From assembly GCA_001630475.1 (NCBI GenBank), contig KV419401.1, positions 124,001-188,000 on the forward strand: a stretch of 64,000 bases of DNA. Direction: 5' to 3'. Position numbers and translations under genes: made by a program. Source of the stretch: Sistotremastrum niveocremeum HHB9708 (Eukaryota; Basidiomycota; Agaricomycetes; Sistotremastrales; Sistotremastraceae). Below, in pieces: positions 19,567-31,737 of this stretch (within the stretch, counting starts at the first letter, position 1; the number at the start of each line of letters is the position of its first letter). The notes below the pieces were generated by a model. The model was given only the letters and a program-made list of their open reading frames with translations, was not told where the DNA came from and did no database searches.

Positions 19567-20138
19567 ATGCCTAAAGAAGCCAAGCCCAAGGTAAGAGTTT
19601 CAACTTGATGTCTCAGATACGCATATATGCGCCTCTTCTGTCCTTTATGTGTTCTGACATTGTCTTTTCTTGTAGAGAAAGGCCGCCGAGAAGGTTGAGA
19701 AAGCTCGTTCTTCCAAGAAGAAGGATCCCAATGCCCCTAAACGCGCCCTCTCTGCGTACATGTTCTTCAGCCAGGACTGGCGAGAGAGGATCAAGACTGA
19801 GAATCCCGATGCTGGCTTTGGTACGTTCTCTTGTCTTGCCGTCACAATTGCATTGGTTTGACAGCGTTGCGTGTTCAGGGGAAGTCGGCAAACTGCTAGG
19901 TGCAAAGTGGAAGGAGCTCGACGAGTCCGAGAAGAAGGTTTGTCATTGTTTACTCTTCGTACTCGGTGACCCTATATCTCTTCTACAGCCCTACATTGAG
20001 CGTGCTGCAAAGGATAAGCAGAGAGCTGAGGAGGAGAAAGCCGATTACGGTGTACGCCCTTTTCCTGAACTGATTGATAAATCTCACTGATTTCCCGATT
20101 AGGCCAAGGCTGGCTCTGGCGATGATGACGAAGAGTAA
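19567..20138 (+). CDS. NHP6: HMG-box chromatin protein, NHP6 type
   Basis: A single-HMG-box architectural protein of roughly 110 residues that bends DNA and assists the FACT histone chaperone. Exon 1 (19567-19590) encodes MPKEAKPK and joins at 19676 to [21 protein letters not shown], the basic tail of NHP6. The HMG box follows: [18 protein letters not shown], then [38 protein letters not shown] and ADYGAKAG, ending in an acidic DDDEE tail. Five exons are inferred, all with GT-AG introns. The length, the basic N-terminal arm and the lack of a second box identify NHP6 rather than larger HMG proteins. Very secure. Confidence 0.93.
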
Positions 20139-20605
20139 ATAATACCCTGGCTGGCACGATTTAAGGATCTGCTCGCTGTTATCTGGAATATAGCACTACG
20201 TCGCTTGCTCGATTTTTTCGTTTCTCTAATGCTGTACGGTCTGCCCTAATCTCTAGTTTACTTGCCCTGTGATCGCTATCTGACCTTCTCCGAACTGTGA
20301 CTTGTGACTGTACTTTCACCAGCGAAACAGCTTTGTGATACTATCGGTAGAGTCCACGCTCTGGATGTATATAGGCTGCTTACCTATTTCTGATGTTGAT
20401 GTTGTACTGTGAGGCGACGGTTGTAGTGTTTCAATAAAATGATCTATGCTGCGTACGGATGATGATGACGACGGCGTGATGTTTGTGCCTTTTGGGGAGC
20501 AGGGCGGCACTCGCTTAGACCGACACGAACCACCATGAGCAACACAGAAAATAACGAAGAACCCGGAGCCGTTGGTCACTCTCTCTTCATTACCACCAGT
20601 CTCTT
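20139..20605. other. Intergenic, no gene
   Basis: 467 bp between NHP6 and the sterol-transfer protein gene. No coding signal; it holds the NHP6 3' UTR and the promoter of the next gene. Confidence 0.45.
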
Positions 20606-22204
20606 ATGTCTTCAAAGGCTGTTCCTGCAGGTCAGAAAGGCAGCTGGACGTCGTTTCTCAAAGCGTTCGTACTAGTGATGTCACTGTCGTCTGACCCAAG
20701 CTAATCGCTCATTCCCCACAATCCAACAGAATCGCTTCGTTCTCTGGCGACCTCTCTTCTTTGACTGCACCTCCTTTCATCCTTTCGCCTGTTTCATTAA
20801 CAGAATTCCCAGGTTAGTCGAACCCACCACCCCATCGTCTCGATCGACTGACTGACAAGTGTACAGCGTACTGGTGTGAAAGACCGGAACTCTTTGCAGC
20901 CATTTCGTCTGGCAAAAATGAGGAAGAGCGAGCACTCTTAGTACTCAAATGGTTCATCGTATGTGTGCTGGTCGCTGATTCTCGAAAGATGCCATGACGA
21001 TACGCACAGAGTACGTTGAAAGGACAGTACAGCTCACGCAATGAGAAGATGGGTAGTGAGAAGAAACCTCTTAATCCTGTCCTCGGAGAGTAGGTCTCTT
21101 CTCTTATCACATGCCCTACCTCCACCAACCTCTGCCCAGAGTTTTCTTCGGTACCTGGCCGGATCGGGATGGGCGAGGCGAGACCAGACTTATCGTTGAA
21201 CAAGTCTCGCATCATCCTCCCGTGACCGCATACCATATTCAAAACGCATCGAAGGGTGTCACTCTTCAAGGGCATTCTGCTCAGAAGACGAGCTTCTCGG
21301 GAGGATCAATCGTTGGTGAGTAATCGCCAGTGCTAAACTCTTGTCAAGCTGATGGCTTCTACTCAGTGAAACAAATTGGACATGCCATCCTCGATGTGAA
21401 GCTGGAGAGCGGGGTCTCTGAAAAGTATCTGATCACTTTACCGACATTGAACATCCAAGGAGTATGGTTAGGTTCTCCATACACAGAGTTGGGAGGAAGT
21501 TCGGTCATTCAGAGCTCGTCTGGTTGGAATGCATCTGTAAGTTCTTTAACAAGACACTAAAACGCATTCTGACTGTGCGAACAGATTGAATACAAAGGCA
21601 AAGGATACTTTTCTGGAAAAGTTCATTCGTTTAAAGCGACCCTCTCACACCCACATTCACATCATCACCCACACGTCGTCGAAGGACAGTGGAGTACGAC
21701 ATCAACTCCAAAGACCAATATCTCATCTTCTCGCGTCTTGGAGAGAAATGGATGCTTCACGGACGTGAATGGACCCAAGGAAGAGGTTACCGTCAAGTCC
21801 ATTGAGGAACAGGGGCCTTGGGAGAGTAGAAATCTATGGAAGGTCGTCAGCGCTGGTATCAGAACTGGTGATTTCGACACTGCTGCAAAAGATAAATCTC
21901 GCATTGAGGTTCGTTGTCAGCATCTCTTAATCGATCCCTGCTAATGCCATATATTCTGTCTGCAGAACGAACAACGGCAGAGGAGAAAGGATGAACGGGA
22001 AGCTGGTACTTCGTGGGATCTTCTATATTTCGATCACGTCGACGAAGATCCCATATGTAAGCGTCTCCCGTACTTGCCAAGCGAAGTAAATATTAACTCG
22101 CCATTATTATAGACGAAAAACTGGCTGCAATGGGTCAGATCGTGCCAGCAACAGAGGATGGCTACATCCTCAAGGACGCACCACTTCCCCACCCTCCACG
22201 ATAA
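20606..22204 (+). CDS. KES1: Oxysterol-binding protein, Kes1/Osh4 type
   Basis: A short OSBP-related protein that exchanges sterol and PI4P between membranes. The start [20 protein letters not shown] joins across an intron to [20 protein letters not shown], the usual Osh4-like N-terminus with its lid. The family signature EQVSHHPP is present, preceded by VFFGTWP and followed by VTAYHIQNA. Later blocks are [22 protein letters not shown] and [15 protein letters not shown], which close the beta-barrel core; the end is PLPHPPR. A His-rich loop ([10 protein letters not shown]) sits before VVEGQW. There are no PH, ankyrin or FFAT parts, which separates it from long OSBPs. About 400 residues in several exons, intact by eye. 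Confidence 0.92.
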
Positions 22205-22834
22205 GAATGCACATTTTTGTATTTCTTGTTCTCCCCTCTATATATCCTTCATGCTGCTTGCGGTTGAATTGGACATCACTAGTATTTGAAGCATCGCATA
22301 ATTGATATTTGTAGTAATACCATAGATAAATGACTCTCCTTCCGCGAATCGAAGTTCACCTTGGCCTGCACGGACCCTCAGAAGCTGGTACATTACCACA
22401 AAGAGGGGAAAGCTTGTAATTTAAGTTGTAAAGCAAGAAAAATTGGTTCCGCGAAGTGTGTTCGAGCTTACGTAATGGCGGCGATAAGACTTTCGTTCCA
22501 CTTTCTTCCTCACTTCAAAGGCTTGGACGATCAACATTCATCTGACCATCGACGCGACCTGCTCTGTCGATGATTTAACTGGTTCTGTAATTACTGGATC
22601 ACCAATGATCATCGTACGCCTATGACAGTTTCGCTCGTCAGCATCTCCCCACTTTGAGAGCTACTCGGTCACTTATGCAGCAACAGTGCTTTGTCCGCAG
22701 TCACTTATGGGTTGAGCCGTGAACTGCGTAGCGGCAGCAGGAGCAGCTCTATAAATCTGCGCGGATGCTCATACAATCGATCACGAACTAAGACTTGCGC
22801 CCCAAAGCGACGACCCTTTCAGTTGCCAGCTACT
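22205..22834. other. Intergenic, no gene
   Basis: 630 bp between the OSBP gene and the first aminopeptidase. No frame with family features; it should contain the aminopeptidase promoter. Confidence 0.45.
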
Positions 22835-25800
22835 ATGAGCGAGACGTCGTTCAGGCTCCCAACTAATGTCACACCCGTGCACTATGGTCAGTGTCAAACA
22901 TGTACCTTTCTCGTCTGTCCTCACTGACCAGAAATGCATTTGATAGATCTCACTCTCCGGACAGATCTTAAATCGTTGACGTTTGACGGCTCTGCGTCCA
23001 TTGAGTAAATTTGTTTTTCTGCTAGATGGTCCAAGCGTTCCTGAGTTGTTAATAGGCTAGAGGTTCACGAAGATTCCTCTACAATCGCATTCAATGCTCA
23101 CGACGGTCTTGTTCTTGGCGATGTCACAGTCATTGGGACTGCACAAAGATGCCACAGAGCCATGGTATCTGAAAGAGCCAACGAAAGAGTTACCCTCAGC
23201 TTGGACCCTCCTCTTCCCGCGGAATCGAAGGCCCTAGTGAACTTGAATTATAGTTCGCAGTTGCGCACAAGCATGGGGGTAGGCTACAGTCGGTTCACAT
23301 AGTCTCCTTCTTACTTTCTCCTACAGTATCATTACAGCTCTTATGAATCTGATGGTCAAACCGTTTTCTATACCGCCACAGAATCTGCCGTAAGAGCGCT
23401 TCCTCGCACTTTGTCTTCACCTGTTCAATAGTTTACAGCCAATATATGCGCGAGCTGTGTTCCCATGTATGGACGAACCGTCACTGAAAGCGACATTCGC
23501 TATCCATATGATATCGAGGATTGGAACAGTCAATCTCAGCAACATGCCCGTCGAGTCTGAAGAGCTCTGTGACTCAGTTAACACCAAATCTGGGGTCTTG
23601 ATGGGGGCGTATTCGTTCCTATTGGCTAAGCTCAGGTTGGGCGGTGGAAGCGGATTGAGCGGTGGCTCTTCCGGAGATGCATGGAAGACAACGAATTTCA
23701 AGACCAGCCCAAAGGTTTGTCCAAGAATATTATCCTCACGGATCCGGAATTCTAACTGTGTAACAAAGATGTCTACATATTTGGTAGCCTTTGCAAACGG
23801 ACCCTTCGAATTTATCGAGAGCTCGTATAAAAGTCCTATTAGTGGAATGGTTCGACCTCTTCGTATCTACGGTAGGTCTCGCATCGTACATGTTTTGATA
23901 GTCTCCTCATCCGGTTCTTTTCTTAGCTACACCAGACATTATACAGCAAACGCAATGGGCATTGGATGTTACTACTCGAGTGGTACCTCTTTACGAGAAA
24001 ATGTTTGACATCGAATTCCCACTTCCAAAATTGGACACTGTTATTGTGATTGAGATTATAGCTGTCACAATTCGTCCCTAATAATTCTTATCAGGCTTCG
24101 AATTATTTGGGCGCGGCAGAAAATTGGGTAGGTTTATATTTGCATCATCGGAGATCGCATAGTATCTTAAATTATGGGCAGGGCTTAATCACTGGGCGCG
24201 CTTCCGACTATCTCCTTGATCCGAGTAGAGCAGACATCAGTTCAAGAAAAGCTATAGCTGCCATCCAAACTCATGAAGTTGCGCATCAGGTGCGATTTTT
24301 CAGATTATTCACCATCTCAGTCATCTGACGCGCAAGATAGTGGTTTGGGGTATGATCTCACTCCCTTATTACCTCGGGGGCTCTTCAACTGATTCCGATA
24401 AGGATGTGGTGACCATGGAATGGTGGGATAATCTGTGGCTCAACGAAGGTAGTTCACAAGGAATCCCGGCACAGATAAGCTTTGAATTTGTGAACAGGAT
24501 TCGCAACTATAGTGAGTGGATCGGGTCAAACGGCTCACGTAATAATTGACGTGTAATAGATGGGTGACATGGTGATGTTGAGTGAGTCGGTGTCGCCATC
24601 AGTCACTGTTTATCATTAATTTGATTCAGATAGGTATACCTAGGCATTTTCGTATCGCAACCTTCTCTCAATGAACAACAGGATCGAACCAGATTGGAAC
24701 GTCTACGCCGAATTCGGAGCTAAACAGCAAAGTGCAGCCTTGGCGCTCGATGCTCGTAAATCTTCGCATCCCATAGAGGTCGCAATCGAAGATCCCAACA
24801 TGATAGGCCAGGTCAGTTGGATGCCGTTTGTTGTAACTCCCTTTAAACGTGCGTGTAGATTTTCGATTCCTTATCCTACTCCAAAGGCGGTTCGGGTATG
24901 TGTTGTTATCCTATGAGAATTGTCGGCATAACCTTGGTGATGGCAGTCATGCGTATGCTCTCTGCATACCTTGGTGAAGAGGCTTTCTTGAAAGGGGTCT
25001 CCGTTTATTTAAAGAAGCACCTTTTCGGTAACACCGTCACGAACGACCTTTGGGATGGCATATCCGAAGCAACAGGTGAGTTTGAAGTTGGTCCGAAATA
25101 TTATAGGTTATCGATGTTTTATAGGACGTCCAATTCAAGACATAATGGACAACTGGATCCGCAAGGCAGGCTTGCTTCTCGTTCGTTATCCGTGCCCACA
25201 CTTACATTGAGCTACGATTCAGACTGGGTACCCCATGATCACAGTGTCTGAATCTTCCGGAGGCATCCATGTTAGACAAGACCGGTTCTTACTTCATGGC
25301 GCCGCAGATGAAGCAGATAATGAGACCATTTGGTTCGTGTCGTTCGCCGTTTGACTCAATTACTTCCTAGCTAAACGGCACCTCAGGCAGATCCCTTTGT
25401 CAATCACAGCCTCTGGAGACGACCAGGCCTCGGCCGTGCATCGAGACTTTTTGATGATTGATCGCGAGATCTTTATCGAGCTGGATGTCGAGAAGCCGTA
25501 TAAGCTGAATGGCGGCAACACCGGCTTCTGTGAGAAAATTTCGTTCTTGATGTTGGGGTCTTCGACTCAAACGTCCACAGATCGAGTCCTTTATGATGCA
25601 GATCGTGCTGCCGTAATTGCAGCTGAACTTGGGTTACAGCCTTCTGTTTTCGTCCTCGAAGATCGCATCGGATTCTTGTCTGATTCCCTGGCTCTTGCTC
25701 AGGCCTCTTATTCAAAGACGAGCGACTTTCTGAAATTTGTTCATCTTTTCCGGCATGACAAAGAACGTGAGCGCTCTACGTGTTTTGTTCATTCAATGTT

Positions 25801-27047
25801 TCTGAGTACATACAGATTTAGGATGGCGGCAAATGACCAACGGGCTTATAGAAGTGTCAAGCCTGTTCTGGGAAGACAAGGGCGTGCAAAATGGTCTTCA
25901 GGCATTCCAAGCAGTAATGAGATCTAACAGTTCGTCTTATCTCGCACTGACTAAATTCTCCAGTCTCTGTTTTCGCCCCTCGTCAAGCGTCTGGGTTACG
26001 ACAATGATGATAGTGACCATCCAGATATCATTCAACTCCGCACTCTGGCCATCACTCAGGCTGCCAATGCCGGCGTTATAGAGTAAGCTTCTAGATCGTC
26101 TTCGTCTTCCTAATATTGACCGATGCATTAGAGTGATCCACGAACTTCAGAGACGCTATGCGGCATTCTCCTCTGGGGAGCAGGGCGCGATCTCTCCTGA
26201 CTTACTCCTACCGACGTTCAAAACCGTGAGGTTCACACTTAAATTGACGTGTCCCAACTCAACCGTACTGTAGGTGGTCCAGCATGGAGGATTAAAAGAA
26301 TGGGAGGCTATGAAGAATATCTTTCGTGGACCCTCAACCCCAAATGCATCCGCCGCAGCTCTGTCGGTCCAATCCAATCCATGCCTTACCTGATTCATTC
26401 ACAACCTTTGTAGTAATGCCATGGCGTCCACGCGGGATCCCAATCTAATAGAGAAGACCTTGGCGTTCTTGAAGTCCGACGTCTTTGGGCAAGATCTCTA
26501 CAGATTTTGGAAAGCTTTACGAGATAATCCTTTCGCGAGAAGAATCGTCGCCAAGCATTTCTTCCAGAATTTCGACCATGTAACTGTCCCGTCTCGTTGG
26601 AGCATCCTGACACGAAATTTACGACATCTCATAGATCGCCAGTAAATACGATGGTGACGTCAACATTTTCTCAAGAGTCTTGGCAGTGAGTACCTCTCGA
26701 TTTAATTCAAAATTCGGTGCCGTTGACTTCGTTGCTTTGCTGAAGGCGACTTTCGACCGGTTCTGCACAAAAGCTGACATCGAGGAAGTCGAGGCATTTT
26801 TCAAGGTCGGTACCGTAACATCAGCCCTTCTTGGACGATGCTCACATACGTGCATATAGGAACGAGATACCAGGGTTTATTCCCTGGCACTGGCTCAGAC
26901 GCTCGAAATCATCCAAATCAATACTCGTTGGAGGGCGGTAATTATGTTTGATTCTTTGACAATGTCAATTGCTAAATATGTTTTTAGGAGAGCCTGGAAG
27001 ACGTGGAAACCTGGCTGACCAAATGGAGATTGTCCGAGGGCGTATAG
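22835..27047 (+). CDS. M1 zinc aminopeptidase (Ape2/Aap1 type), copy 1
   Basis: A gluzincin aminopeptidase that would trim N-terminal residues from peptides. The start MSETSFRLPTNVTPVHY is joined to DLTLRTDLKSL. Family blocks then follow: RAVFPCMDEPSLKATF, MSTYLVAFANGPFE, LPLPKLDT-like text, the substrate motif, HEVAHQ (HExxH), WFG, DVVTMEWWDNLWLNEG with the third zinc ligand Glu, then MRMLSAYLGEEAFL and a helical C-terminal domain ending WRLSEGV. The GAMEN motif is GAAEN here (codon 24116-24118). The zinc-site region is cut into tiny exons: 9 nt (24341-24349, WFG), 14 nt (24498-24511), 22 nt (24560-24581) and 4 nt (24630-24633). One later intron appears to use a GC donor (CGCAAG|GCAGGC, about 25172). 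More than 20 exons in all. It is followed directly by a paralogue on the same strand. No frame break was needed once these exons were used. Confidence 0.87.
24341..24349 (+). other. 9-nt micro-exon coding W-F-G, aminopeptidase copy 1
   Basis: TGGTTTGGG lies between ...AAGATAG and GTATGATC. It restores the invariant HExxHQWFG block in phase 0 at both ends. The same 9 nt occur as an exon in copy 2 at 29022-29030. Confidence 0.8.
24630..24633 (+). other. 4-nt micro-exon ATAG, aminopeptidase copy 1
   Basis: ATAG lies between TTGATTCAG and GTATAC. Splicing TTG-A to AT-AG to G-ATC-GAA gives L-N-R-I-E-P-D-W, matching the conserved L-D-R-x-x-P-E-W of the family. Without it the frame cannot be carried to the next exon at 24682. 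Confidence 0.7.
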
Positions 27048-27394
27048 GGACTGTTGTTGGCCCGATCGCCTTCAACGAGTTTAAGCGCCCTCTGAACTGT
27101 TTCTGCTATAATTCAATATCTTGGATTATGATCAATGAAATATTAGTCAAATTTAAGTTTCCATACCTCCATCATGTACTAGGACTGGGGATGAACGTAT
27201 ACCAGTACTATATGGAAGTCTGTAAATATAACTCGGCGCAGTCCCTGTGGGACGGACCGTGAGCGGCTTCAGGATGACCTTGAATATGACAACATCCGCT
27301 GCATGTGCTCTCGAGATCATCATTGCCTGCGCATTTGCTGCGTTGCAGAAGCACCCATTGCTTTTAAACGCGGAAGAATAGAGCAATCATCCTC
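27048..27394. other. Short spacer between the two aminopeptidase genes
   Basis: 347 bp with no coding signal; it must serve as terminator region of copy 1 and promoter of copy 2. Confidence 0.45.
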
Positions 27395-30300
27395 ATGCCA
27401 GTGAACGCGCAAGAAGGTGCGGTCGCTATGAGTGCAGCCTCGAGCCCATACAGACTCCCAGGAAATGTCAGGCCCGTACATTATGGTAGAGACAGTGTTG
27501 ACGAAGAATTTGCGTACGATGCTGAATGCTGCTTGCTAGATTTGAACATCAAGACAGACTTGGAGTCCTTGAGCTTCCAAGGCGTTGTGGTTGTTGAGTA
27601 ATCGATTTCACCCCAGTTTCTACTCTACGGCTGACGACCTCGCAGTCTCGAAGTCTCAGAAGAAACTTCTGAGATCGTTTTCAATGCAGCAGAGGACATC
27701 AAATTGAATGCCATAGTTCTTCATATTCAATCACAATCGCTGGAGAAGGAAGACCTTCAATTTGGTACGGACCTCGATCCTCAATACGAGCGTGTCACGA
27801 TACGCACTCGCAAACCTCTTCTTGAGGGCTCAAAGCCTCAATTGACTATCGTATTTGGGGGGAAATTGAGTGGAAGCAGTCTTGGTGTATGCCACATTCG
27901 ATCCAAAAGCCATTGTACTGAACGCAGACTAGTATCACTCAAGTTCCTATCAAGTCAATGGAACACAGAAACATTGCTCCGTCACGCAATTTGAGGTATG
28001 TCACTTTACTTTCATCGAGTTGCCCATCTGCACATGCTAATACTTTCCCAGCCCACCTTTGCGAGAAGAGCATTCCCATGCTGGGATGAACCCGCCTTCA
28101 AGGCCTCCTACAAAATCACTATGGTCTCCCGAGAAGAAACTGTCAATATTAGCAATATGCCGGTTGCGTCTGAAAAAGCTTACACCTCTGCTCAAGCAAC
28201 TGGAGGCTATGGCATTTGGTCGACACTGTCATCCGCCTTCAGCTATCTCACCTTGAGGAAGGGCGCCGAACCTCAGAGTGATATCAAAGCTTTTAGTTTG
28301 GGCGATGGGCGATGGAAGTCGACCGAATTTGAGACCAGCCCTGTGGTACGTGTGCTCTCATGATGGTCCAGTTTGGCTATCTTATTTTTCACAATGTAGA
28401 TGTCGACATACCTCGTAGCATTTGCGAATGGGGACTTCAAGGTCGTTGAGGACTCATACACTAGCCCTATCAGCGAAAAAGTGATACCTGTCCGAGTTTA
28501 TAGTACGCCTCCACTTTACTTTCCACTCTTTGCGATAGTTAAATCACGTCTTTCAGCTACTCCCGATGGTGAAGGCCAAGCCGAATGGAGCTTAAATGTC
28601 TCGAAAACCGTCATGCCTTTGTACGAGAAGGTCTTTGATGTTGAATTTCCACTACCGAAGTTGGATACCTTGGTGGTGCGCTGATTATACCTGCATCTTC
28701 GTTTCATTGAGCTAATTCCTTCGTCAGGCAAACGATTATCATGGTTAGTGTCTTTCTCCAGGCTTCGGTTCAAGCGCTTAAGCTCTTCAACTGATTAGGC
28801 GCGATGGAGAACTGGGTAGCGCGCTACTTAAATCATTGGTGGCACTCTCTAATAGCCAATTAGGGTCTCATTATCGGCCAGCCCAATGTTTACCTTATGG
28901 ATCCAAATAAGCCAGACTTCAACACCACCCAGCGAATTGCTGAGGTTCAAACCCATGAGATAGCACATCAGGTAGGCATCACTCATCGAGAGGTGTTGAG
29001 ATCGGGACTAAATCATATCAGTGGTTTGGGGTATGCGGCTTCTTTTTGCACACTGATTTCCGTTGACCTGAATCAAGAACATCGTGACAATGTCCTGGTG
29101 GGATAACCTGTGGCTCAACGAAGGTAGGCCGCGTGGGCTATTATGGCCCTTTCAAAAGCTCATCATTGTGGCCAGGTTTCGCTACCATAGTCAGTTCATC
29201 GATCATTCCTTTCACGCCTTTTGATTTTACATCATGCTAGATGGGTGCCTTGATAATATTGGGTGAGTCATACAACATTGCATTGACAGACCGGCCAGAC
29301 AATTTCTTGTAGACAGGTATGGCCTCGAGGCTTCCTGGAGGTCTCTTTCTGAGCTTGCCTTGTAGGGTCAAACCCGAATGGAATTCGTCTGCAAGGTTTC
29401 TTATCAGCCAGACCTCTGACGCCTTAGCGTTGGATTCCCGAAGATCCTCGCATCCTATCCAGAACCCTGTTGATAATCCAAACGAAATCAAGCAGGTATG
29501 ATGAGCGTGATATTCTCGGATGCCCTTCGATCTAATACAATATATGTCCAGCTTCTCGACCAACTGACTTATGCGAAAGCCGCTTCCGGTAAGTTGTCTC
29601 GCTGAATAGATGTATCATCTTTATTCACGATTGAATCGTATAGTTTTGCGCATGCTATCAGCATATGTCGGGGAAGAACAGTTCCTAAAGGGTGTTTCGT
29701 TGTATTTGAAGAAACATTTATATGGCAATAGCACCGCCAACGACTTATGGGATGGGATCGCTGAAGCTACAGGTGAGAATATATCAGACTTGACTCTCGT
29801 CTTCTTATATCTGGTCGCACAGGACTGGATATTCGGTCACTGATGGATAACTGGATCACTAAGGTATTTCTTCTCTACCTGATTCAATGATCAATTGTCG
29901 ATTTCGTTTAGATCGGCTACCCTGTTGTGACCGTAACGGAGAAGGAGTCGGGTGTTATACACATCAGGCAAGACAGATTCCTGGTCGATGGTTCTCCATC
30001 TTCCGAGGAAAACAAGACGCTGTGGTATGGATCCGATATAACCTATCTCACCTTGTGTCTGACCAAGGACAGGAACGTTCCCCTCTCGATTTTGACCTCT
30101 GACGAGATTTTCAAAAAATCAACCGCGCAGCACACGCTGTTGGACCAACGAGAGACAGACATACAGCTAGACACGACAAAACCATTCAAGCTCAATGGCG
30201 GGAGTACCGGCGTTTGTAAGTCCCTAGTATGATCTTTGCCCAAAATTAAGTAATGTAATTTCTTTCAGATCGCGTGCGCTATAGCACAGAACGCGCCCAA

Positions 30301-31737
30301 GCAATCGCAAAAGAAGCGGCTAAAGAGGATTCAATATTCAAGACTGAAGATCGAATTGGACTTGTGTCTGACACCCTAGCTCTTGCGCAAGCATCGCTCT
30401 CGGACACGAGCAGTTTGCTCAACGTCATAGAATTGTTCAAAGACGACAAAGAAAGTAAGCATCTCAAATGAATACTCCTCCATTCGTTTGAATTGATGCG
30501 TCTGGATCAAGATTTGGGATGGACTGCTATGAATGACGCAATCACAAAACTCGTCAATATTTTCTGGGAAGATGAGGAGTTGTCGGAAGGGCTTCGCATT
30601 TTCCAGCAAGTGAGTTAATTTTAAGTTCATTGAGATACGTTTGATTTAGCGAATGACCAGTCATTGTACGCTCCGATTGTTGAGAGACTGGGCTATGACA
30701 ATCAGGATGACGAAGCCGTGGACGTGAAAGGACTGCGAACACTGGCAATAGCAAGAGCGGCTGCCGTAGGAGAACCTAAGTAAGCTCGACCCTCTCATGG
30801 TACTCTTCCCCGATCTCATCCCCTTGTAGAGTAGTCAAAGAGCTTTTGTCCCGCTGGAAAGCGTACAATGAAGGCGACGAGAGCGCCATCCCAGCGGATA
30901 TTCTCGGGGCTACTTTCAGAGTGGTGAGATCGCTCGGTGTTGTCCTACTTCGTTATTAAAATGGATGATCAGGCGGTCGAACATGGCGGTCGCGCCGAAT
31001 GGGAGACTATGAAGAAGATATACGAGTCAGGCTCTTCACCGGCCACGCACTTACCAGCCATGTGTGTTGCTCTTCCTCTTCACGATGATCTCTCCCTGAA
31101 TGAGAACTTGCAGCGGTGGGATGTGTAACTCGAAAGATCCCGAACTGATCAAGGAAGTTATCGAGTATACCAAAAAACCGCTTCGTACTCAGGACTTCGA
31201 CTCGTTTTGGATTACTCTTGCCAATAATCCATTCGCCAGAAGAATTTCGATTGACTATACATATGAGAACTTTGATGCTGTGAGCTCGGGTCTGTTCACA
31301 GGCTCGACCACTTGCTTACTAGTAACCCGCTCCAGATCACGGAGCGGTTTGGAAGGGGGTTCAATACCATGAAAAATATCATCGAGGTATGTGACAAAGC
31401 CTCCGCCTATCGAAAGTGTTTCTAAACGCGTTATTCATCGGATAGAGCACATTTGGAAAGTTGACAACCGAAGAAGACGCGACTAAACTGGAGAGTTTTT
31501 TGGAGGTGGCTACTGTTCGGCTCCATTCAGCATAAGCCCTCTGATCACAGGACTTATAGAATAAAGACACCGCTGGGTATAACATGGCTGTAGCGCAAAC
31601 GCTGGAGTTGATTCGCGTGAATACCAAATGGCGGAAGGTGCGTGCTTGTTCATCGACATTCTCAGGATAACATTGACGTGTCATAGAATGCAACCGAGGA
31701 CGTCAAGGGGTGGCTGGATGAGAGAAAGATGATCTAG
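27395..31737 (+). CDS. M1 zinc aminopeptidase (Ape2/Aap1 type), copy 2
   Basis: A full second M1 aminopeptidase. The first ATG (27395) gives MPVNAQEGAVAMSAASS; an inner ATG at 27428 matches the start of copy 1 better. Blocks in order: SPYRLPGNVRPVHY, DLNIKTDLESLSF, TQFEPTFARRAFPCWDEPA, MSTYLVAFANGDF, the standard GAMEN motif (A-N-D-Y-H-GAMENW), HEIAHQ, WFG, NIVTMSWWDNLWLNEG, then FATIMGALIIL, DRVKPEWN, LRMLSAYVGEEQFLK, and a C-terminal helical domain to DERKMI. Tiny exons are 16 nt (28728-28743), 17 nt (28799-28815, GAMENW), 9 nt (29022-29030), 14 nt (29176-29189), 22 nt (29241-29262) and 4 nt (29313-29316). All residues needed for zinc and peptide amino-end binding are present, so this copy should be active. 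Confidence 0.9.
29022..29030 (+). other. 9-nt micro-exon coding W-F-G, aminopeptidase copy 2
   Basis: TGGTTTGGG lies between CATATCAG and GTATGCGG, at the same place as in copy 1, right after the HEIAHQ exon. Confidence 0.8.
29313..29316 (+). other. 4-nt micro-exon ACAG, aminopeptidase copy 2
   Basis: ACAG lies between TTCTTGTAG and GTATGG. TTG-G + AC-AG + G-GTC-AAA yields L-D-R-V-K-P-E-W, exactly the family consensus. An alternative that ends the first intron after ACAG and reads on from GTATGG is also open for 15 codons in this copy, but not in copy 1. Confidence 0.75.

Follow-up and report, generated by a model that had tools for sequence, protein, structure and literature searches.

In an intact M1 aminopeptidase gene, the tetranucleotide ATAG at positions 24630-24633 (forward strand) very probably forms a 4-nt microexon that is constitutively included and spliced by intron definition. 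The evidence comes from the sequence, the reading frame, conservation among paralogues, intron lengths and splice-site scores. Positions refer to the window, i.e., the whole 64,000-nt stretch of DNA that was analysed (G000:C8:124001-188000), which is contained in a genome of 34.7 Mb. The short, closely spaced introns point to a fungus, probably a basidiomycete.

Three aminopeptidase copies and their gene models

The gene carrying the quartet, copy 1, occupies 22835-27047 on the forward strand; the aligner model covers 22838-27032, and the start ATG and stop TAG beyond it were placed by eye. It is followed on the same strand by a tandem paralogue, copy 2, at 27428-31737 (extended models), and a third copy (L013) lies on contig C1. 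Identity to copy 1 is 49% for copy 2 and 55% for copy 3. Two exon searches (E up to 10, best candidates scored) revealed no other place in the genome beyond these three copies. A Pfam search of the genome found further, more distant M1 relatives on contigs C29 (L001) and C14; the M1-like open frame on C14 presumably resembles TAF2 and is of no help for the microexon question. The scan of viral contigs returned no relatives.

Gene models were built with a small purpose-written spliced aligner, with two doubtful residues masked. With the single intron that the aligner then places at the quartet, copies 1, 2 and 3 have 29, 29 and 30 exons, respectively, and the microexon adds one to each. The copy 3 model falls short of the start codon, and the models of copies 1 and 3 end a few codons early. 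In copy 2 the aligner kept 30025-30072 as coding (48 nt, a multiple of three, stop-free); judging by eye from the other copies, this segment probably represents an intron, which would bring copy 2 to one intron above the count.

With the 4-nt exon included, the coding sequences of copies 1, 2 and 3 are free of stops over 901, 934 and 907 codons, and match PF01433 with 224.2, 225.9 and 235.3 bits (cut-off 27.7). The zinc motif of M1 enzymes is HEXXH-X18-E, and H339, E340, H343 and E362 are invariant in the three-copy alignment. Their exopeptidase motif, GXMEN, is present as GAMEN in copies 2 and 3 but as GAAEN in copy 1 (24110-24124), a replacement that may alter the exopeptidase activity. Copy 1 has a single 33-nt exon here (24095-24127), where each of the other copies has two, measuring 16 and 17 nt in copy 2 and 19 and 17 nt in copy 3; this difference we read as an intron lost or gained. 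Copy 1 also contains a GC-AG intron (25166-25222, GCAGGC...TTCAG, 57 nt), whose counterparts in copies 2 and 3 use a GT donor. Upstream of the aminopeptidases, at 19600-22210, two genes can be recognised by eye: one is HMG-box-like, and the next is oxysterol-binding-protein-like, with an EQVSHHPP motif.

The probable 4-nt exon in its reading frame

The quartet lies just after the zinc-binding site of the enzyme, in a region of very short exons. In copy 1 these are a 9-nt exon at 24341-24349 (TGGTTTGGG, W-F-G after HEVAHQ), a 46-nt exon at 24403-24448 which holds the second zinc ligand Glu, a 14-nt exon at 24498-24511 (F-A-T-I) and a 22-nt exon at 24560-24581 ending in TTGA. A 48-nt intron (24582-24629, GTGAGT...TTCAG) separates the latter from ATAG, and another 48-nt intron (24634-24681, GTATAC...AACAG) separates ATAG from a 130-nt exon at 24682-24811 that begins GATCGAACCAGATTGG. 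The original prediction had given the exon borders and the TTCAG|ATAG|GTATAC arrangement exactly as we found them; the donor at 24582 is GTGAGT. The join TTG-A|AT-AG|G-ATC reads L-N-R-I, with N-R spread across the two junctions, and the segment L-N-R-I-E-P-D-W is in frame.

Both paralogues are arranged alike. In copy 2, the 22-nt exon (29241-29262) is followed by a 50-nt intron (29263-29312, GTGAGT...TGTAG), the quartet ACAG (29313-29316, read D-R) and a 49-nt intron (29317-29365, GTATGG...TGTAG), all on the forward strand, and the join reads L-D-R-V. In copy 3 the quartet is ACAA (L013, 2567-2570), giving L-N-K-I. The length, codon position and phase of the 4-nt exon are thus the same in all three paralogues of this one genome; in each of them it is preceded by an acceptor AG and followed by a donor GT, both paired with canonical sites, and the zinc-site exons have identical lengths throughout (9, 46, 14, 26 as 22+4, and 130 nt). 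Sequencing or assembly error can be dismissed, as three separate copies agree.

If ATAG is skipped in copy 1, the frame shifts and a stop is reached at residue 406, 44 residues past the second zinc-binding Glu (362). With the first intron kept, the stop falls at 387, and with the second kept, at 379. Across the three copies, loss of the exon or retention of either intron produces a stop 17-48 residues past the second zinc Glu; inclusion of the microexon would thus be required for an enzyme. Intron retention was rejected as an explanation. Skipping truncates the protein in every copy; however, shifting the donor by 4 nt also preserves the frame. The claim that a direct join fails in frame therefore holds for the GTGAGT donor only, since a donor at 24586 (GTGA|GTCGGT) joins in frame across a 96-nt intron.

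Intron lengths, splice signals and rival readings

The 4-nt shift provides the main rival, in which one intron (96, 99 and 104 nt in copies 1, 2 and 3) takes the place of the microexon; we consider this rival improbable. Its donors would be GTGA|GTCGGT, GTGA|GTCATA and GTGA|GTGGAT, and the two residues in question would become S-E, G-E and S-E; in copy 1, joining 24585 to 24682 yields L-S-E-I-E-P-D-W. In its favour, the frame is kept in all three copies with one intron fewer, and for this reason the aligner chooses it in all three when the two residues are masked. Yet an in-frame GT at position +5 follows automatically from any GTNNGT donor.

The intron lengths speak for the microexon. With it, the flanking introns measure 48+48, 50+49 and 53+51 nt. 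In the first run, 70 of 73 introns were 46-60 nt long (mean 51.3, sd 2.97), and the remaining three were the single-intron reading's own; in the extended models 82 of 85 fall into this range, with the same three exceptions. The lengths within 22835-31737 and L013 are remarkably uniform, as if set by a ruler. For comparison, three of eight actin/tubulin loci were kept as controls (L094, L095 and L100), whose 28 introns span 47-64 nt and include one GC donor. We left out L096 and L097 (25-26% identity, alignments meaningless) as well as L098, L099 and L101 (34-40% identity to beta-tubulin); among these, introns measured 47-61 nt in L098 and L101, and 47-67 nt plus one of 134 in L099.

Splice-site scores point the same way, albeit unevenly. 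The first donor is GTGAGT in all three copies and scores at or above 59 of 69 others. Among second donors, GTATAC of copy 1 is weak, with only 4 of 69 others at or below it, while the corresponding counts are 21 for GTATGG (copy 2) and 36 for GTTAGT (copy 3); 10 of 70 other acceptors score at or below that of the copy 1 second intron. Of the 70 other introns, 54 have a branch-like YTNAY site, as do four of the six introns flanking the microexons; the search for YTNAY found none in the downstream introns of copies 1 and 2. The upstream introns carry strong signals, whereas the downstream intron of copy 1 is weak. The donors required by a single intron are weak too: only 2 of 69 others score at or below those of copies 2 and 3, and 11 for copy 1.

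Splice sites and intron length were combined in one score, which was applied to solutions with introns of at least 40 nt. Its donor and acceptor matrices were built on the other introns, its length term had a flat tail of 5%, and the intron rate was set at 1%. Among 10, 9 and 5 in-frame, stop-free solutions (copies 1, 2 and 3) the microexon ranks first each time. Its lead is 9.5, 17.7 and 17.3 log2 units over the single intron and 4.2, 2.8 and 14.7 over the runner-up, margins that vary with the scoring choices. The proposal of ATAG as an exon is supported: by intron lengths, combined score, position and phase, a 4-nt exon explains copy 1 and its two paralogues best. A 1-nt exon that would restore the prokaryotic spacing of 12 residues was rejected, as the listed in-frame solutions with introns of at least 40 nt contain none.

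Recursive splicing through a zero-length exon, in which the shifted donor is first joined to the AG of ATAG or ACAG and the following GT then serves as donor, would generate an mRNA identical to the single-intron one. It is the third-best solution in copies 1 (-6.9) and 2 (-4.6), where the necessary AG|GT is present; but it relies on the weak donors, yields S-E or G-E, and is impossible in copy 3, as ACAA leaves no AG ahead of the GT. We regard it as extremely improbable. The same is true of the notion that the copies differ in structure, with copy 2 using a 54-nt intron (29263-29316) and the next 49 nt as coding, and copy 1 a 54-nt intron (24590-24643) followed by read-through. Although these solutions are the runners-up, 2.8 (copy 2) and 4.2 (copy 1) units behind the microexon, copy 3 has no matching one, and long unconserved insertions would be placed beside the zinc site. 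Finally, that copy 1 is a decaying pseudogene with an accidental 4-nt match is hardly credible: its second-intron signals are weak, it has a GC-AG intron and GAAEN instead of GAMEN, yet it keeps 901 stop-free codons across 30 exons, HEVAH with the second Glu and a PF01433 match of 224.2 bits, and both paralogues share its arrangement.

The residues encoded by the microexon were compared with prokaryotic relatives (best 80 of 239 matches), in 79 of which the motif was readable (L068 being missed). The first residue was D in 35, A in 31, E in 11, S in one and Q in one; the second was H in 42, Q in 12, R in 8, K in 7, A in 5, W in 2, and N, F and Y in one each. E, which a single intron would place second, occurred in none of the 79 read among the best 80 of 239, and S or G in the first position in one only. 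On the other hand, N in the first position, as in copies 1 and 3, was also found in none of these 79 prokaryotic relatives. Summed over the copies, the homologue columns favour the microexon over a single intron by 5-10 bits, mostly owing to copy 2, while copies 1 and 3 gain 0.4-1.6 bits each; the gain in the Pfam match is 0.6, 1.1 and 1.1 bits for copies 1, 2 and 3. Overall, the microexon is weakly favoured by the homologue residues. The conserved L-D-R-x-x-P-E-W block that had been invoked is matched literally by copy 2 (LDRVKPEW) but not by copies 1 and 3, and in the 79 relatives it mostly shows D, A or E followed by H, Q, R or K, in a segment one residue shorter. The spacing from FA to P is 12 residues in all 79 relatives read and 13 in the fungal genes under either reading, which indicates a one-residue insertion in the fungal segment; some other fungal M1 sequences probably share the 13-residue spacing.

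The arrangement exceeds what chance would give. For each copy, the stretch between the outer exons was shuffled 20,000 times with dinucleotides preserved. A 4-nt exon that was in frame and had both introns within 46-60 nt appeared in 1.3%, 1.9% and 3.3% of shuffles for copies 1, 2 and 3; the residues it encoded also fitted [DNE][RKHQ] in 0.07%, 0.18% and 0.12%. The product over three copies was computed but carries no weight, because paralogues are not independent. Between the copies, the flanking introns themselves are hardly more alike than shuffled sequences (identity 0.57-0.62 versus shuffled means of 0.54-0.56, sd 0.03-0.04). Since position, length and phase of the microexon are shared by the paralogues, it most likely predates the gene duplications.

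Proposed splicing and comparable exons

Given the very uniform short introns, we infer that splicing proceeds by intron definition, in which each intron of about 50 nt would be recognised across its own length, with little demand on exon length. Four nucleotides would hardly accommodate the 3' splice-site complex and U1 snRNP together, which makes sequential removal of the two introns most likely. The upstream intron with its GTGAGT donor would be removed first; the quartet would then be fused to the 22-nt exon, and the next donor would have a normal exon context before the downstream intron is removed. The exon might have originated by intron gain at a proto-splice-like site, ACAG|G, located 4 nt from an existing intron.

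A more far-reaching idea, which we find rather doubtful, is that in this lineage an intron ruler of about 51 nt leaves exon size almost free and that the 4-nt exon serves as a built-in on/off switch, with splicing efficiency setting enzyme output. If so, the enzyme would be truncated or altered just past the zinc site whenever the exon is skipped or one of its two introns is kept and, in copies 1 and 2, also when the AG that closes the exon is used as acceptor. The microexon itself predicts mRNAs containing TTGAATAGGATC (copy 1), TTGGACAGGGTC (copy 2) and TTGAACAAGATC (copy 3), while a single intron predicts TTGAGTGAGATC in copies 1 and 3 and TTGGGTGAGGTC in copy 2. Moreover, the microexon predicts a tryptic cut before IEPDWNVYAEFGAK in copy 1, which the single intron does not.

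The original prediction regarded 4 nt as close to the known lower limit for an exon. This was too strict, as 1-nt exons have been published: a constitutive one, experimentally demonstrated, in Arabidopsis APC11 (PMC4674806) and one confirmed by SRA reads in the Fusarium CYP621A P450 (PMC12940212). APC11 resembles our case as a constitutive exon of a few nucleotides or less, but is a plant gene with 1 nt; the Fusarium exon, likewise an ultra-small fungal one inferred from frame and homology, is 1 nt long and belongs to an ascomycete and another gene family. The rarity of the exon was overstated as well. Human MPC1 and TNNI1 are reported to contain constitutively included 4-bp microexons (PMC9929638). 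These too are nuclear exons of 4 nt, not a multiple of three, and constitutive use is described there and inferred here; however, the MPC1 exon is set in long introns and is accounted for by exon definition via a 67-nt upstream region (PMC9929638), whereas both introns here are about 50 nt. A 4-nt exon is also described in plant RECQ3 (PMC8831610).

Closest in gene family is the plant Peptidase M1, with adjacent microexons of 5 and 12 nt (PMC8831610), and the same is reported for Zygnema M1 (PMC11096116). These are again tiny exons of an M1 peptidase gene overlooked by annotation, there with RNA-seq support; they differ in length and phase (phase 1 for the 5-nt exon, phase 0 for the 12-nt exon) and in lineage (PMC8831610, PMC11096116). 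Among fungi, the P450 genes of Phanerochaete chrysosporium, a basidiomycete, are described with many microexons and short introns of 45-55 bp (PMC1184071). The shortest exon reported there is 6 bp, and those microexons are said always to encode whole small peptides of 2-10 aa, unlike the 4-nt exon here (PMC1184071). In Trichoderma virens, Xlr2 contains a switch-like, glucose-regulated microexon that is absent from gene models (PMC11121469); the likeness lies in a fungal microexon being overlooked, and the regulation is a feature of Xlr2. Cryptococcus introns are described in PMC3990503 and PMC5851062, the latter giving an average of 65 nt. The open-access papers searched yielded no basidiomycete exon below 6 nt, and one may still be in print. 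This kind of exon is already known.

Tiny exons are known from other organisms, yet easily overlooked. Contrary to the earlier expectation, a gene finder would not necessarily call this gene broken: it could produce truncated enzymes, or, via the donor 4 nt downstream, an open frame with two false residues, and because that wrong frame is open the error can go unnoticed. A similar error is described in plant annotations, where a neighbouring exon is extended instead of a microexon being recognised (PMC8831610).

The same genome offers further examples. The actin gene L094 (G000:C25) contains a 5-nt exon, GTTAT (1295-1299), and a 6-nt exon, TTGCCG (1448-1453), which are needed for the near-invariant actin residues VIDNGSG and GFAGDD; its product is identical to a yeast actin in 333 of 375 residues. 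Both exons persist at intron penalties of 4-16; at penalties of 20 and 25 the 6-nt exon persists, and the first residues are lost along with the 5-nt exon. Exons of 9, 46, 14, 22 and 4 nt amid introns of 46-60 nt, together with the 5- and 6-nt exons of actin, would make a clean test system, suited to exploring the lower size limit of exons under intron definition and the order of removal of crowded introns. A second actin-like gene, L095 (G000:C25), has a 10-nt exon (2494-2503) and a 19-nt exon; at higher intron penalties the former is swapped for a single 111-nt intron. Two adjacent tubulin genes on the same strand were observed at G000:C3 1165548-1168716.
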